This document shows positions 19,727-27,023 of a stretch of 57,461 nt of DNA, piece after piece. A program made the translations under genes and the position numbers. The notes beneath the pieces were generated by a model. It worked only from the letters and a program-made list of their open reading frames with translations, was not told the origin of the DNA and searched no databases. This DNA is from an uncultured bacterium. Lineage in GTDB: Bacteria; Vulcanimicrobiota; Vulcanimicrobiia; Vulcanimicrobiales; Vulcanimicrobiaceae. Numbering within the stretch: the stretch's first letter is position 1; the number at the start of each line of letters is the position of its first letter. The stretch is taken from contig CAIKPM010000060.1 of the NCBI GenBank assembly GCA_903829325.1, positions 1-57,461 of the forward strand, read 5' to 3'.

Positions 19727-20333
19727 CCGCTTTCTCCTCTTCTTCGTCTAGATTGGAAGCCACGGTATCGTCCTGCGCGACGACCGCCGCGTGCGCTTGG
19801 CTTTCGAGCACGACCCGCAAGCGATCTAAATCATCATCGAGCATGCGTTGAGTGAATTCATCCATCAGCCCATCCAAATTCAGTGGAATCGTCGCTGCTT
19901 GGTGAGGTTTGAGCGTGAGAGTCCATTCGAATCCGAGCTCGCAAGCGTTCTCGTCAAGGGCGAGGAAACTCAAGGCCAAACGGCTCTGCACGGGAGCATC
20001 AGCACTCGCGCGCCATTCGATCCGCTCACCATCGAGCTCGATCACCGGATCACAGCTATACGCCAAGCTCTGCCCAAGTTGCCCGCGTAGTTCCCAGCTC
20101 GTTACTCCGCCCTCGTGGGTGTTCAGGCTCTTGACGATGCGCAAGACCTTGAGCAGATTCGAAGGGAAACGCCAAAACGCGTATACATGCTCTACATTAC
20201 AAGCAATCCGCATGCGCCCACCAACCCAGCGCGGCATACCATCAAACTTTTGCTTAGCTGGCGCACGCAAGTTCTCGAGTAAGGCAGAGAAAACTCCCGT
20301 CAGCGATTCAAACGCCCGCACCCCTGCACTCAT
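19719..20333 (-). CDS. SRPBCC (START/Bet v1-like) family protein
   Basis: The 204-residue protein has the pattern of a ligand-binding SRPBCC fold. An N-terminal strand and helix carry the HVYAFWRFPSNLLKVL motif near residues 49-64. Next come WELRG, a DPVIELDGERIEWR segment and a C-terminal long helix. Members of this fold bind lipids or quinones, act as aromatase/cyclases, or aid respiratory-chain assembly; the ligand here is unknown. The end is acidic (EEEEKADA). The start overlaps the manA stop as TGATG, so it is coupled to manA. Family assignment is by pattern only. Confidence 0.65.
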   Translation of the reverse strand: MSAGVRAFESLTGVFSALLENLRAPAKQKFDGMPRWVGGRMRIACNVEHVYAFWRFPSNLLKVLRIVKSLNTHEGGVTSWELRGQLGQSLAYSCDPVIELDGERIEWRASADAPVQSRLALSFLALDENACELGFEWTLTLKPHQAATIPLNLDGLMDEFTQRMLDDDLDRLRVVLESQAHAAVVAQDDTVASNLDEEEEKADA

Positions 20334-21397
20334 CAGACGAATTGTGCCAAAAACGCGTCGAAGGGAGCAGTGTCGATGCCCAGCGCGGTGAGTCGCTTGC
20401 GCGCTCGGGTTGCTGCGCCAGCCGGCGTGACTGTAAAGACACTCGTTGGTTGCTCCGCACGAATCTCAACACGATCAAGCCCGGCTGGAATCAGGGCGCA
20501 TTGCCAGGGCAAAAGTGGCACTTCATCGTGGATAGTTCGCAAGAGAATGGCCTCATCATGGGCTTGAATCACCGTCGCAGCGGCTTCGGTCAGAAATTTC
20601 ACATGGCCAGGCACTTCTAGCTGCTCGAGCCCAAAATGATCATCGATCACCAAAAGTCGCCGATTCGCTCCAAGGTAGCGATAGTTGAATGGCTGTACCG
20701 GACCGCGGCTTGAAGCGCGGAAATCAAGCACGTCGGCGGCTTTATCGACCTGCAAAACACGCTTTTGGCCGTTGGCATCGACCCGGTCCCAATCATAGAT
20801 CCGATAGGTCGTCGTACTCGTCTGCTGCGTTTCGAAAAGCACAATACCCGCGCCGATCGAATGCAACGTGCCAGCAGGGATGTAGAAGACATCACCCTTC
20901 TTTACTGGCACGCGCCGCAAGATTTCGCTCAAGCTGCCTGCCTGAAGCCGACGCCGATATTGCTCGGCATCGCAATCCTGAGCAAATCCAAGAATCAATT
21001 CAGCACCTGGCAGCGCTTCAAGAATAACCCAACATTCGGTCTTGCCGTTCGGCGCCTGTTCCACTCGCCGAGCGTAGACATCATCAGGATGCACCTGAAC
21101 CGACAAAGGCTGATGAGCGTCGATGATCTTCGTCAAGACCGGGAAATCCTTACGATCGGTAAGTCGGGTCAAGCCGATCAAAGCGGGGCCCATCGAGTGC
21201 AATAATTCACCGATCGACTTGCCCGCTTCAGTCCCATTAGCAACCTTGTTGTCGCTCCAACATTCCCACGATTCACCGTATGTTGCCGTGGCGCTGCCGG
21301 CTTTGCCGTAGCGGCTGACCAGCGCATCACCGCCCCAAAGGGCCTCAACCAAATGGGGGGTGAGCAACAGAGGATACAGTCGATTCATGCGAGCCAC
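20333..21397 (-). CDS. manA: Class I mannose-6-phosphate isomerase
   Basis: This cupin-type metalloenzyme interconverts fructose 6-phosphate and mannose 6-phosphate, feeding GDP-mannose synthesis or mannose use. Metal ligands are visible: Gln and His in SVQVHPDD near residue 99, Glu in GKTECWVILEA, and His in AGTLHSIGAG near residue 178. The 354-residue length and the WGGDALVSRYGK start fit the Firmicutes-type family. The GTG at 21397 has AGAGAAAC upstream; an ATG three codons later is also possible. It lies in a tight run with the TPR/ATP-grasp gene upstream (55 bases) and the SRPBCC gene downstream. Confidence 0.9.
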   Translation of the reverse strand: MARMNRLYPLLLTPHLVEALWGGDALVSRYGKAGSATATYGESWECWSDNKVANGTEAGKSIGELLHSMGPALIGLTRLTDRKDFPVLTKIIDAHQPLSVQVHPDDVYARRVEQAPNGKTECWVILEALPGAELILGFAQDCDAEQYRRRLQAGSLSEILRRVPVKKGDVFYIPAGTLHSIGAGIVLFETQQTSTTTYRIYDWDRVDANGQKRVLQVDKAADVLDFRASSRGPVQPFNYRYLGANRRLLVIDDHFGLEQLEVPGHVKFLTEAAATVIQAHDEAILLRTIHDEVPLLPWQCALIPAGLDRVEIRAEQPTSVFTVTPAGAATRARKRLTALGIDTAPFDAFLAQFV

Positions 21398-21452: not shown

Positions 21453-22766
21453 TTATAACCACAACAAGCGCTTCATTGCATGATGAATCGCTTGTGCCGC
21501 TGCACGCCGAGCGTGATTGGCTGGAGTATGACTGGGCAGCGGTACGACCATCATTGCATTCGCTTCGAAACAGACAACTCGACCCGCGGCATCCACACTA
21601 AAATCAATACCCGCATAATCGAGGTTTAGCGTGGTGCTAATAGCGTGCAGTGCGGACATCGCCTGCTCGCCAAGCACCCGCTCGGGGTCTTCAAGATAGC
21701 GCGCTTCTTCGGCCAAAAACGCCTCTGAGGAAGTCGTCAGAGCATGCCGGTAGTGCACCTTCCACTGCGCATCAATCGCTAAATGCGCAGGATACAACAC
21801 GCCCCCGATGCTCATCATACGATATTTCCGGAACAAGCCATGCTCATCGCGGGTATCGAGATACTCCAACGCAAGCAGCTCATCACCCGGCAACTCGTGC
21901 ATCGCCTGCACCAATTCTTCCTGAGTACTCACCAAGCAAAAGTGCTCCCCGGTATGAAAGCCCGGAACACGTAGCAAGAAGGGGAAGGCCATCGCCCGGG
22001 TCAGCAACCAAGCCGACTCCTCCGCGCTCTCCGAACGTTGCAAGCGGACCACGCGCGGGGTACGCACATGCGGAAGACGCGCAAAACGATACGCATTTTC
22101 ATCGCGACGACTTCGCAAGACGGCAGCGGGATGGTTGAGAATCGGTTTGTGGTATTGCTCTATGATTGGCGTGAGCGTATGAAGCGCACGCAGCGTATCA
22201 CTGTGGTGATCAGGATCACCAATCCCATGAAAGACATAATCAAACTCCGGTAAGACGGTCACCTGATCGAGTTCTTCGGCAATCAACTTGACCACGTTGA
22301 TCGCTTCGGCCGCCAAATACGGTCGCATATCGACATTGCCGCCATAAGCGGAGAGAATCAAGAGCATCGTCGGAGCGGCCAAACTGACTGTCCGCTGTGT
22401 AAGCGCACGATGCTGGAAGGCCCGCGAACGATGCTTCTCCGCTTGCTCAAGGTCATTCAAGCGCATCGCCGTGTAGGCAGCACCTTCGTGCGCGAGGGGA
22501 TCATCCGGGGCCAAATAGAGCGCTCGAGCGTATTGCAAACGTGCCGCTTCCCATTCGCAACGATCGTGATAGATATGCGCCAGATGAATCTGGATCTGGG
22601 CATCATGAGGAGCCAATTGTGCAGCGCGTGAGAGTGCCGAAAGGGCGGCATCCAGACGCCCGGTGCGAGCGGCGAGCATACCCAAACCATCGAGGGCAGC
22701 AACATCCTCTGGGTTGTGCGCTAACTGCTGTAAATATGCTTGTTCGCTTGCATCCACGGCATTCAT
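21453..22766 (-). CDS. TPR repeat and ATP-grasp fusion protein (copy 1)
   Basis: Residues 1-130 form about three TPR repeats (AALDGLGMLAARTGRLDAA, IHLAHIYHDRCEWEAA and similar). Residues 135-437 are an ATP-grasp-type ligase region, with PFLLRVPGFHTGEHF for the nucleotide lid, ALEYLDTRDEHG, and the metal-binding end LDYAGIDFSVDAAGRVVCFEAN. Such enzymes join a carboxylate to an amine or thiol using ATP. Substrate unknown. The ATG at 22766 has GAGGT upstream. It diverges from a paralog at 22894, and manA follows 55 bases downstream. Confidence 0.78.
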   Translation of the reverse strand: MNAVDASEQAYLQQLAHNPEDVAALDGLGMLAARTGRLDAALSALSRAAQLAPHDAQIQIHLAHIYHDRCEWEAARLQYARALYLAPDDPLAHEGAAYTAMRLNDLEQAEKHRSRAFQHRALTQRTVSLAAPTMLLILSAYGGNVDMRPYLAAEAINVVKLIAEELDQVTVLPEFDYVFHGIGDPDHHSDTLRALHTLTPIIEQYHKPILNHPAAVLRSRRDENAYRFARLPHVRTPRVVRLQRSESAEESAWLLTRAMAFPFLLRVPGFHTGEHFCLVSTQEELVQAMHELPGDELLALEYLDTRDEHGLFRKYRMMSIGGVLYPAHLAIDAQWKVHYRHALTTSSEAFLAEEARYLEDPERVLGEQAMSALHAISTTLNLDYAGIDFSVDAAGRVVCFEANAMMVVPLPSHTPANHARRAAAQAIHHAMKRLLWL

Positions 22767-22893
22767 CACCCACCTCTATCGGCAAGTGCGCACGCATTAT
22801 GTACTCTCCACAACTCAAAAACGAGACATGTAACGACTTGCACTTTCTCTGCCGAAGATCAAATGGATTATCTATAAGGAGAAAGGTGCACGT

Positions 22894-24345
22894 ATGCAAG
22901 CTGAGGTTTCTCTCGCCGACCGTGAAAGTTGGCTACGGGTGCTTGATTCGGGCCTCGCTGAACAGCCCGAGCTGCTCACGCTACAGTTCGAACGAGCGCT
23001 CACCCTCGAAAGCCTCGGTCGTGCAAGCGAGGCCGAGCATGCGTACAACCACATTCTTCACGAGGATCCCGATTTTTTTCCCGCGCGCAATAATCTCGCG
23101 CGGATCAACTATCAAACTGGTCGACGCGTTGAGGCCTTTGCACACTATAAGGAAGCGGTCATCCGTCACCCTGAGAACGCGAAGGCGCATGCCAATTTCG
23201 CGTTCTTGCTCTTACGGGGTGACGACCCCGCCACCGCCCGACTGCATTACGAGCGCGCACTCGTACTCGAGCCCGATAACGTGGAAGCTCACCGCGGCCT
23301 GACTCTCGCGCTGCAAGCTCTGGGAGAAAACACCGCCGCCGCGAGTCATCACGCCCGTGGCTTCGATGCAAATCCGCTCACGGTCTTGCCGTATCGCGGA
23401 GAAGGCAGCGGTATCAGAACCCTACTCATCGTCTCTTCAACGCCCGGGAATATCCACTTTGAAGGCATGCTCGATGAGCAACACTTCGCCATTACCAAAA
23501 TCATTGCGGAAAGCGAACAGTATCTGCCCGAATTACCGCCGCACGATCTGCTCATTAATACGATCGGCGATGCCGATATTGCTAGCGCCGGTCTAGCCGG
23601 AGCGCAACGCATTGTGGCTCGCTCCAACGCCAGCGTCATTAACCACCCCAGCGTGATCGCTGCCACCCGCCGCACTGCGATTGCCCAGCGCTTACGCGCA
23701 CTACCGAACGTTCAGACTGCACACATGCAGCTCTTTTCGCGTGATCAGCTCCTGGCCGATGATGCGCTGGTAGCGCTTCAACAAGCCGGCTTCGCCTTTC
23801 CGCTCTTGATCCGCACGCTAGGATTCCATACCGGCCAACACTTTCTCGCTATCGACGACGCATCCGACCTGGTAGCTGCTGTAGCGAAACTACCCGGCGA
23901 AGAACTTCTGGTCTTGGAATACATCGATACCCGTGATCAAGCCGGTCGATTCTGTAAGTATCGGGTAATGGCTGTTGGCGGGAAGCTCTACCCACTTCAC
24001 GCAGCAGTCGGCAACGACTGGAAAGTCCACTATTTTAGTGCTCAAATGGACGACGAGCAACATATCGAGATCGATGCGCATTTTCTCACCGATATGCATG
24101 CCCATCTCGGAGAAAAAGCTATCGCAAGCCTGCAAGCAGTCGCTCACGAATTGTCCCTTGATTACGGTGGAATTGATTTCGCGCTCGATGCAGCGGGGCA
24201 AGTCGTTGTGTTTGAAGCAAATGCAACGATGATTGTGCCACGCCCGAATAATGATGCACGGTGGGCATATCGCCAAGAGCCCACGCAGCGAATTTATGAT
24301 GCGGTACACGCCCTCTTGCAATCCCGGCTGAACGCCTCTGCCTGA
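22894..24345 (+). CDS. TPR repeat and ATP-grasp fusion protein (copy 2)
   Basis: This 483-residue paralog of the divergent gene at 21453-22766 has about four TPR repeats in residues 1-155 and an ATP-grasp region from 165 to the end. Shared motifs are GFHTGQHF, LEYIDTRDQAGRFCKYRVM, the WKVHYF segment and LDYGGIDFALDAAGQVVVFEANATM split across the metal site. AGG lies 7 bases before the ATG. It probably forms a transcription unit with the GH63 gene 11 bases downstream. As with copy 1 the ligase substrate is unknown; a peptide or sugar acid are both possible. Confidence 0.78.
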   Translation: MQAEVSLADRESWLRVLDSGLAEQPELLTLQFERALTLESLGRASEAEHAYNHILHEDPDFFPARNNLARINYQTGRRVEAFAHYKEAVIRHPENAKAHANFAFLLLRGDDPATARLHYERALVLEPDNVEAHRGLTLALQALGENTAAASHHARGFDANPLTVLPYRGEGSGIRTLLIVSSTPGNIHFEGMLDEQHFAITKIIAESEQYLPELPPHDLLINTIGDADIASAGLAGAQRIVARSNASVINHPSVIAATRRTAIAQRLRALPNVQTAHMQLFSRDQLLADDALVALQQAGFAFPLLIRTLGFHTGQHFLAIDDASDLVAAVAKLPGEELLVLEYIDTRDQAGRFCKYRVMAVGGKLYPLHAAVGNDWKVHYFSAQMDDEQHIEIDAHFLTDMHAHLGEKAIASLQAVAHELSLDYGGIDFALDAAGQVVVFEANATMIVPRPNNDARWAYRQEPTQRIYDAVHALLQSRLNASA

Positions 24346-24356
24346 AAGATACACTC

Positions 24357-27023
24357 GTGAATAATGAACGCAAGCGCTTGCGCGACGCGCGGGAAGCGCA
24401 AATTCCCTGGCGTCGTTGGGGACCGTATCTGAGTGAACGACAATGGGGGACGGTGCGGGAAGATTATAGTGCAGACGGCGACGCATGGGGCTATGTCACG
24501 CATGAACAATCACGCTCACGTGCTTATCGCTGGGGAGAAGATGGCTTACTCGGCATCAGCGATGATCACCAACGCTTGTGTTTTGCGGTGGCGCTTTGGA
24601 ACGGACAAGATCATATCCTCAAAGAGCGCGCGTTTGGTTTGACTGGTCCCGAAGGCAACCACGGTGAAGATCTTAAGGAGTATTATTTTTTCCTCGACAA
24701 TGTGCCCTCGCACGCCTATATGCGCGCACTCTATAAATATCCGCAGAGTCGTTTTCCATACGAAGAATTAGTTGCTCAAGCAAAAAGCCGCACACGCCTT
24801 GACCCAGAATACGAATTAGTCGATACCGGAATCTTTGCCGAGAATCGTTATTTTGACGTCTTTGCTACCTACGCGAAGGCAGATACCGACGATTATCTGA
24901 TCGAGCTAGAAATCATTAACAGAGGACCGGATACCGCCAGTATTCATGTCTTGCCAACGCTGTGGTTCCGCAACGAGTGGTCTTGGAAAAAAGGCTGTCA
25001 CAAACCAGCGATTCGCGACATTTCTAGCGACGAGCCTCATGTTGTGCTCGAAGCAAGCCATGCGACATTGGGCGAGTATTATCTCTACGCCGAGTCTGGA
25101 GAAACACTTTTCACCGAAAATGAAACAAATATCGATGCGCTCTTTGGCAAACCGAATGAATCACCATACGTAAAAGACGGTATCAACCGTCGGGTGGTGG
25201 ACGGGGAACTGTCTGCAGTTAATCCCAAAAAGATTGGAACCAAGTCAAGTATTTGGTACCAGCTCGAGCTTGGCTCAGGCCAATCGCGTCGTATTCGTTT
25301 GCGTCTTTCGCTTGAACCGCAACTAGATGATCCGTTTGGGAACGCCTTCAGCGAAATGCTCCAGACCCGCGCGACCGAAGCCGATCATTTCTATCAACAA
25401 GTCAATCCGTTTTCACTCACCGATGATGAACGCGCGATTCAGCGCCAAGCCTTAGCAGGGATGCTCTGGAATAAGCAATTCTACAACTACGTCGTCTACG
25501 ATTGGCTCAAGGGCGACCCCGCCGAACCGACGCCACCTGCAAGTAGGCTCAAAGGGCGCAATCACGAGTGGGCGCATCTCTATAGCAACGACATTTTATC
25601 GATGCCCGATACCTGGGAATACCCCTGGTTCGCAGCGTGGGACCACGCCTTCCATATGATCCCCTTAGCGATGATCGATCCTGATTTTGCAAAAAGCCAA
25701 TTGATACTCTTGACGCGTGAATGGTACATGCATCCCAATGGGCAAATTCCCGCTTACGAATGGGCGTTTGGTGATGTCAATCCACCAGTACAAGCTTGGG
25801 CAGCTTTGCGCGTCTATCGGATTGATAAAAAAATGCACGGCCAAGCCGATCGATCTTTTCTCGAGCGAGTTTTCCAAAAGCTTCTCTTGAATTTTACCTG
25901 GTGGGTCAATCGCAAAGATGCAAGCGGAAACAATATTTTCCAAGGCGGTTTTCTTGGTTTGGATAACATTGGGGTTTTTAACCGCAGTGAAAATTTGCCT
26001 GAAGGAACGTACATTAATCAATCCGACGGCACCAGTTGGATGGCGTTTTATTCCTTAAGCATGCTAGCAATCGCGCTAGAGTTGGCAAAAGATAATCACA
26101 ATTACGAGGATATCGCCTCAAAATTCTATGAGCATTTCCTCTATATTGCGGATGCGATGAACCAAAGCGGCGAACGCATGATTGGCCTCTGGGACGATGA
26201 AGATAAATTTTATTACGACGCGCTCGCTCTAACCGACGGCAAACAAATCACCCTCAAAGTCCGCTCGATGGTCGGTCTGATCCCGCTTTTAGCGGTGGAA
26301 ACGCTCGAAGCAGAGACCCTCGAACGATTTCCTGATTTTTCGCACCGCATGAATTGGTTTATCCGCAATCGCCACGATCTCCGCGATAACGTTGCGTCAA
26401 TGGAAGATATGGGCGAGGCTGATCGCCGACTCTTCGCTATCGTGGACAAAGAGCAACTCCGCGCAATTCTCCGCCGTATGCTCGACGAAAATGAATTCCT
26501 CTCGCCACACGGCATCCGCGCTCTTTCGCGCGCGCACAAAGACCATCCGTATTCACTAGAATTTAACGGCAGCGCACATCGAGTCGACTACGAACCCGCC
26601 GAGTCTACCAGTGGACTTTTCGGCGGGAATTCGAATTGGCGTGGCCCCGTGTGGTTTCCCTTGGGATATTTATTGATTGAAGCATTACAGAAATTTCATC
26701 GTTACTTCGGTGATGATTTTCGAGTCGAATGCCCAACCGGCAGCGGCACGGAAATGACGTTGTGGGAAGTTGCAAGCCTTTTATCGCAGCGCATGATCAA
26801 TATCTTCAGTCGCGATGCGCAGGGCCGTCGCCCGGTTTATGGCGATAATCCACTCTTCCAAAACGACCCACACTGGCGTGACTATATTCTCTTCTACGAA
26901 TATTTCCACGGAGAAAACGGGAGCGGCTTAGGAGCCAGCCATCAAACCGGCTGGACGGGGCTTGTCGCCAAACTCATCCAACAATACGCCGAATACGAAG
27001 GCATGGAAAAATCACCGCTCTAG
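24357..27023 (+). CDS. Glycoside hydrolase, GH63/MGH1-like
   Basis: The 888-residue protein has no signal peptide and looks cytoplasmic. The N-terminal motif WGPYLSERQWGTVREDYS and the (alpha/alpha)6-barrel motifs match bacterial GH63-type enzymes. AWDHAFHM near residue 428 carries the probable catalytic acid, followed by NGQIPAYEWAFGDVNPPVQAW; the NSNWRGPVWFPLGY segment near residue 757 is also typical. Relatives hydrolyse alpha-glucosides or mannosylglycerate; the substrate cannot be told here. The GTG start follows the TPR/ATP-grasp gene by 11 bases. Its stop overlaps the queA stop region by 12 bases in the convergent direction. Confidence 0.85.
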   Translation: MNNERKRLRDAREAQIPWRRWGPYLSERQWGTVREDYSADGDAWGYVTHEQSRSRAYRWGEDGLLGISDDHQRLCFAVALWNGQDHILKERAFGLTGPEGNHGEDLKEYYFFLDNVPSHAYMRALYKYPQSRFPYEELVAQAKSRTRLDPEYELVDTGIFAENRYFDVFATYAKADTDDYLIELEIINRGPDTASIHVLPTLWFRNEWSWKKGCHKPAIRDISSDEPHVVLEASHATLGEYYLYAESGETLFTENETNIDALFGKPNESPYVKDGINRRVVDGELSAVNPKKIGTKSSIWYQLELGSGQSRRIRLRLSLEPQLDDPFGNAFSEMLQTRATEADHFYQQVNPFSLTDDERAIQRQALAGMLWNKQFYNYVVYDWLKGDPAEPTPPASRLKGRNHEWAHLYSNDILSMPDTWEYPWFAAWDHAFHMIPLAMIDPDFAKSQLILLTREWYMHPNGQIPAYEWAFGDVNPPVQAWAALRVYRIDKKMHGQADRSFLERVFQKLLLNFTWWVNRKDASGNNIFQGGFLGLDNIGVFNRSENLPEGTYINQSDGTSWMAFYSLSMLAIALELAKDNHNYEDIASKFYEHFLYIADAMNQSGERMIGLWDDEDKFYYDALALTDGKQITLKVRSMVGLIPLLAVETLEAETLERFPDFSHRMNWFIRNRHDLRDNVASMEDMGEADRRLFAIVDKEQLRAILRRMLDENEFLSPHGIRALSRAHKDHPYSLEFNGSAHRVDYEPAESTSGLFGGNSNWRGPVWFPLGYLLIEALQKFHRYFGDDFRVECPTGSGTEMTLWEVASLLSQRMINIFSRDAQGRRPVYGDNPLFQNDPHWRDYILFYEYFHGENGSGLGASHQTGWTGLVAKLIQQYAEYEGMEKSPL

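Follow-up and report, generated by a model that had tools for sequence, protein, structure and literature searches.

A divergent pair of TPR–ATP-grasp genes in a Candidatus Eremiobacterota genome is one instance of an expanded, uncatalogued family linked to a PLP decarboxylase

What reaction do two adjacent, divergently oriented genes for proteins with TPR repeats and an ATP-grasp domain carry out, and do their products depend on each other? To answer this, we analysed a 57,461-nucleotide stretch of DNA (hereafter the window) from a genome of Candidatus Eremiobacterota, which is Vulcanimicrobiota at NCBI. A preliminary description of the window had reported two open reading frames facing apart across about 125 bases, with TPR repeats preceding ATP-grasp in both products. 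Both genes are present and divergent, separated by 124 bp (Table 1), and the domain order holds: Pfam TPR models match both N-termini, and copy 2 has a fold match in its ATP-grasp part. The two proteins share 36% identity over 433 aa (BLASTP, E 1e-78) and are, at the level of sequence, paralogs. The motifs described earlier as common to both are real and are conserved across dozens of relatives. Gene 1 probably starts at ATG 22766 rather than GTG 22769, giving 437 aa. We found no sigma-70-like site in the 124-bp region, and a bidirectional promoter was rejected, as the consensus was not above chance. A mannose link, considered for the ManA-like and MGH1-like neighbours in the window, was also dropped, as these genes do not recur beside relatives' genes.

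Table 1. Positions of the window genes, their parts and neighbours, and of linked decarboxylases and fusions elsewhere
Feature	Position	Strand	Remarks
Mannose-6-phosphate isomerase-like gene, class I	20333..21397	(-)	3' of gene 1; non-conserved neighbour
Gene 1 (P0001), TPR + ATP-grasp protein	21453..22769	(-)	438 aa from GTG 22769
ATP-grasp part of gene 1	21456..22373	(-)	residues 133-438
TPR part of gene 1	22419..22766	(-)	residues 2-117; Pfam TPR_2 E 1.4e-8, AF2 helices
Likely RBS of gene 1, GAGGTG	22771..22776	(-)	just ahead of ATG 22766; from sequence
Divergent intergenic region	22770..22893		124 bp
Likely RBS of gene 2, AAGGAG	22876..22881	(+)	from sequence
Gene 2 (P0002), TPR + ATP-grasp protein	22894..24345	(+)	483 aa, ATG at 22894
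TPR part of gene 2	22912..23367	(+)	residues 7-158; Pfam TPR_17 E 9e-12, AF2 helices
ATP-grasp part of gene 2	23404..24333	(+)	residues 171-480; RimK fold match E 7e-10, conservation
GH63 / MGH1-like glycoside hydrolase gene	24357..27023	(+)	11 bp 3' of gene 2; non-conserved neighbour
Decarboxylase of the source genome	C45:80687-82087		not adjacent to any ligase; different contig from window genes
Acidobacterial fusions, examples	L189:6441-9458, L114:6432-9470, 17 further loci		one ORF, about 1000 aa
Reverse-order fusion	L235:1169-3898	(-)	909 aa, Eremiobacterota genome

To characterize the two proteins, we examined their domains and predicted structures. TPR_2 and TPR_19 exceeded the Pfam cut-off in copy 1, as did TPR_17, TPR_2, TPR_16 and others in copy 2. 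No Pfam or NCBIfam model reached its ATP-grasp cut-off in either C-terminus, and no significant PDB match was found there by sequence. The AlphaFold models are confident (pLDDT 93 and pTM 0.90 for gene 1; pLDDT 96 and pTM 0.91 for gene 2) and show an N-terminal helix followed by TPR helix pairs, three of them for copy 1 as against four for copy 2, in line with the earlier remark that copy 1 has fewer units. The top Foldseek matches of gene 2 by E-value were RimK, D-Ala-D-Ala ligases (Ddl), ArgX and LysX, with OGT matching through the TPR part. The match to RimK (E 7e-10, TM normalized to the target 0.60) places the C-terminal part in the ATP-grasp fold. RimK, LysX/ArgX and Ddl are ATP-dependent amide ligases.

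Next, we compared the active sites. ATP-grasp enzymes are marked by basic residues in the linker and in RAGNYA strand 2, an acidic residue and an ExN motif (PMC4431377). In gene 2 we found R260 in the linker, R307 in the second strand, D428 and E441-A-N443 as the ExN motif; these residues and R357 are shared by the two copies, conserved from phylum to phylum and retained by almost every clade A relative. In clade B, ExD mostly replaces ExN. Since gene 1 retains every equivalent, both window copies look catalytically intact; missing ATP- and metal-binding residues, which had been named as a reason to doubt the pair's activity, were found in neither. The fold and the D...ExN metal site are those of RimK/LysX/ArgX and Ddl, and a basic residue likewise occupies both nucleotide-binding lysine positions. 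Unlike in RimK and Ddl, however, both lysines are arginine in this family, an N-terminal TPR superhelix is present, and there is a decarboxylase partner. No RimK or Ddl model of Pfam or NCBIfam matched at cut-off, and the window copies have no RimK match near it; Pfam RimK was weakly matched by 8 of 44 relatives (best E 7.8e-5). The R2K clade (CDC123 and relatives) is also ATP-grasp, and a few relatives match R2K Pfam models weakly. R2K proteins have no basic residue in the linker and an additional lysine/arginine in the RAGNYA loop (PMC4431377), whereas the linker R260 is a conserved arginine here.

The two genes are not alone in their genome. The 1.89-Mb source genome carries seven TPR–ATP-grasp genes (two on the window's contig, C60, and one each on C15, C45, C44, C17 and C56), plus a fragment on C15; a PF13535 profile search of this genome did not pick up the family. 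The C56 paralog (L074:8830-10269, minus strand), which has a very long branch in the tree and no longer carries the ExN motif, is probably degenerate or repurposed. Convergently oriented to three of the paralogs in this genome are genes of a single protein family (L070:10649-12523, L071:122-856, L072:1-1551), whose repeats carry GPDGNIWF-like motifs. Within the taxonomic family of the source, copy number ranges from none to about ten per genome.

A scan of genome contigs yielded 358 relatives, mostly from acid-soil bacteria. The best 80 of them come mainly from Eremiobacterota, Acidobacteria, Bradyrhizobium/Xanthobacteraceae, Acetobacteraceae, Caulobacteraceae, Rhodospirillales and Alicyclobacillus, and many of these 80 originate from peat, bog or palsa. 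Plasmids of Rhizobium, Paraburkholderia and Cupriavidus hold distant relatives only. Viral contigs yielded none, so there is no sign of a phage function. Searches of open-access papers on TPR with ATP-grasp, with or without decarboxylase, yielded no description of the family. The window pair thus belongs to an ATP-grasp family that is expanded, widespread and uncatalogued.

We then asked whether the pair itself is conserved. Had the two copies formed an obligate heteromer, for example with one catalytic and one regulatory subunit, relatives might be expected to keep both, a point that the preliminary description had proposed to check. A quick tree and the loci of relatives showed no orthologous pair in any other genome, so that conservation of the pair was rejected; the tree group holding both window copies has weak support (SH-aLRT 90) and long branches. 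The divergent adjacency of the window genes fits a heteromer, and so does the situation in four Bradyrhizobium genomes (L132, L133, L157 and L177; 4 of 10 Bradyrhizobium loci), where a clade A gene and a clade B gene are divergently paired. The Bradyrhizobium pair joins two other clades and so arose separately from the window pair. Most relatives are single genes, and both window copies have complete active sites, so that we regard a heteromer as very unlikely. The other earlier proposal, that the two copies act on different substrates, is compatible with their divergence to 36% identity.

The strongest clue to the function of the family came from a linked decarboxylase. We found 19 acidobacterial ORFs that encode a group II PLP decarboxylase, TPR repeats and ATP-grasp in one polypeptide, in that order. 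Eighteen are complete (about 940-1070 aa), all of them with the PLP-lysine motif DFHKW, and the nineteenth stops at a contig end. The isolate Silvibacterium bohemicum carries a fusion of this type as a 1005-aa protein (L189:6441-9458), and in Granulicella the decarboxylase and TPR–ATP-grasp are two adjacent genes. The reverse fusion, TPR–ATP-grasp–decarboxylase, was found in Eremiobacterota genome G107. In Eremiobacterota, genes for clade B ligases adjoin or overlap those for this kind of decarboxylase. Ligase and decarboxylase neighbour each other in 26 of the 41 Eremiobacterota genomes with both (adjacent in 25, fused in 1), and on a Rhizobium tumorigenes plasmid a ligase, a hypothetical protein and a decarboxylase lie in a row. 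Furthermore, Pyridoxal_deC is the top Pfam family among operon-like neighbours (9/74); apart from the decarboxylase, most TPR–ATP-grasp genes have no conserved neighbour.

The link extends to co-occurrence. Among 99 genomes of the source's family, 41 have both a ligase and a close decarboxylase, 4 the ligase only, 1 the decarboxylase only and 53 neither (Fisher p 5e-22, uncorrected for kinship and with several genomes incomplete). With one genome per genus the counts are 18, 1, 1 and 17 (p 2e-8, not corrected for the species tree). Genus g6 (G005, G062) has many ligases and no close decarboxylase, indicating that the decarboxylase is not always needed.

Other enzymes adjoin some relatives. SerC-like aminotransferases are linked to relatives in Paraburkholderia and Nitrospirae. 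A SerC-like class V aminotransferase gene takes the place of the decarboxylase immediately beside the ATP-grasp gene at L229:6704-9069 and L151:6828-9416, the aminotransferase ORF at L151 spanning only about half of the family profile. At two loci a clade B ATP-grasp gene is followed by one for an FAD-NAD(P)-binding protein (NAD_binding_9; L218:978-3710 and L228:6700-9383, both minus strand). OGT-like TPR-Glyco_transf_41 proteins adjoin two relatives (L168:1085-2860, L163:10432-12399), and a 2OG-Fe(II) oxygenase is divergent from relatives in Xanthobacteraceae/Hyphomicrobiales (L154:6727-7872, L147:6576-7763), fused to AhpC/TSA at L147.

The source genome encodes a single such decarboxylase, on contig C45. 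It is nearest to bacterial tryptophan/DOPA decarboxylases, and its PLP lysine is kept. One of its tyrosines lines up with one in solved homologs that we regard as the catalytic tyrosine of aromatic amino acid decarboxylases. The enzyme looks intact.

A PLP decarboxylase linked to an ATP-grasp ligase has a precedent in the methanofuran pathway, where the tyrosine decarboxylase MfnA feeds MfnD, an ATP-grasp tyramine-glutamate ligase (PMC8141765). The same linkage is seen across our family, though not locally in the source genome; MfnA and MfnD differ in being separate proteins without TPR, and the decarboxylase found here scores well under the MfnA cut-off. Decarboxylated amino acids also enter NRPS-independent amide formation in the E-64 pathway, with a dedicated PLP decarboxylase; there the glutathione synthetase-like ATP-grasp enzyme Cp1B makes the bond between acid and amino acid, and another enzyme makes the second amide (PMC12568646). 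This pathway resembles ours in its broad logic of decarboxylase plus ATP-grasp but is fungal and has no TPR fusion.

The order of the two reactions could also be reversed, with the ATP-grasp domain linking an amino acid either to another amino acid or to an acid before the PLP enzyme decarboxylates the conjugate. Fusion and adjacency in both gene orders suit this scheme and, because both orders occur, do not fix the order of reaction. However, the closest relatives of the decarboxylase use free aromatic amino acids as substrates, and in MfnA/MfnD the amine is made first. We consider ligation before decarboxylation decidedly unlikely.

Across the family we observed the TPR–ATP-grasp architecture, intact catalytic residues, the fold, and fusion, adjacency and co-occurrence with the decarboxylase. 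The family probably uses ATP to couple an acid with an amine, and its members are best read as ligases of an amide pathway, independent of ribosome and NRPS, in which the decarboxylase supplies the amine. From this we infer the reaction, the order of decarboxylation then ligation, the role of the TPR part and the place of the window copies in the pathway. First, the partner decarboxylase, whose gene is fused to that of the ligase, forms a transcription unit with it or is inherited together with it, would convert an amino acid to the amine. Second, ATP would phosphorylate a carboxylate to an acyl phosphate. Third, the amine would attack the acyl phosphate to form the amide, with the TPR part holding the acid substrate or a partner. 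The window pair would be two diverged ligases of the seven-member set, each probably with its own substrate, and would draw on the one decarboxylase encoded on C45; the paralogs, these two included, would differ in acid or amine. That both window genes encode active carboxylate-amine ligases of this TPR-fused family, with the amine at least often coming from a group II PLP decarboxylase, seems to us slightly better than an even bet. The separation of the window genes from the decarboxylase, the many ligases of genus g6 with no close decarboxylase, and the other enzymes beside some relatives count against the amide-pathway reading.

The TPR part raises a further question about the substrate. 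Its conservation falls only slightly short of that of the catalytic part (mean top-residue frequency 0.56 vs 0.63), and polar residues recur in it, H61, H92, N101, H133 and H152 among them, so a freely varying adaptor role is unlikely; its binding partner may be a conserved peptide-like substrate or the enzyme's own ligase domain. With such polar residues, the substrate could be a protein or peptide and not a small acid. By sequence, the nearest solved TPRs are consensus TPRs and those of OGT, and the superhelix resembles that of OGT and SPINDLY at this level, although their catalytic domain is unrelated. RimK, the best fold match, modifies a carboxylate of ribosomal protein S6. For these reasons we still considered protein modification, in which the OGT-like TPR would capture a protein or peptide and the ATP-grasp domain would attach an amino acid, or the amine from the decarboxylase, to a carboxylate. 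The relatives beside TPR-Glyco_transf_41 proteins and 2OG-Fe(II) oxygenases fit this too. On the other hand, no conserved target-protein gene lies nearby, neighbours are mostly unrelated between loci, and the conserved TPR residues may be structural or touch the ligase domain. Overall, protein modification appears unlikely. A narrower version is that the TPR part selects a protein or peptide target, to whose carboxylate the arginine-type ATP-grasp domain attaches a biogenic amine from the physically linked decarboxylase. We rate this protein amidation as a slimmer chance, just below that of ligation before decarboxylation; were it true, the seven or more paralogs per genome would be a target repertoire.

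A small ribosomal precursor peptide encoded nearby, which the pair would cyclise or tag, is the most improbable of the substrates considered. Graspetide (microviridin-type) ligases share the ATP-grasp fold, and separate TPR proteins sometimes occur in graspetide loci (PMC8939145). Their architecture is different, however, and NCBIfam ATP-grasp maturase models scored far under cut-off. The search for precursor-peptide genes beside homologs, which had been proposed earlier, revealed none next to genes of this family: the small ORFs that did recur all lay antisense to neighbouring genes, a result that speaks against a system of the graspetide type.

Returning to amide formation with an amine supplied by the decarboxylase, an ATP-grasp family that is widespread and has no model in Pfam or NCBIfam now has a testable partner enzyme. 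Because fusions exist in both orders, the reaction can be assayed directly with one polypeptide, for example the 1005-aa protein of Silvibacterium bohemicum. If confirmed, the family would provide new ligases for biocatalysis and would bring to light an NRPS-independent amide pathway in acid-soil phyla about which little is known. The decarboxylase link suggests that soil bacteria make small amides or modified peptides by a route not yet described.
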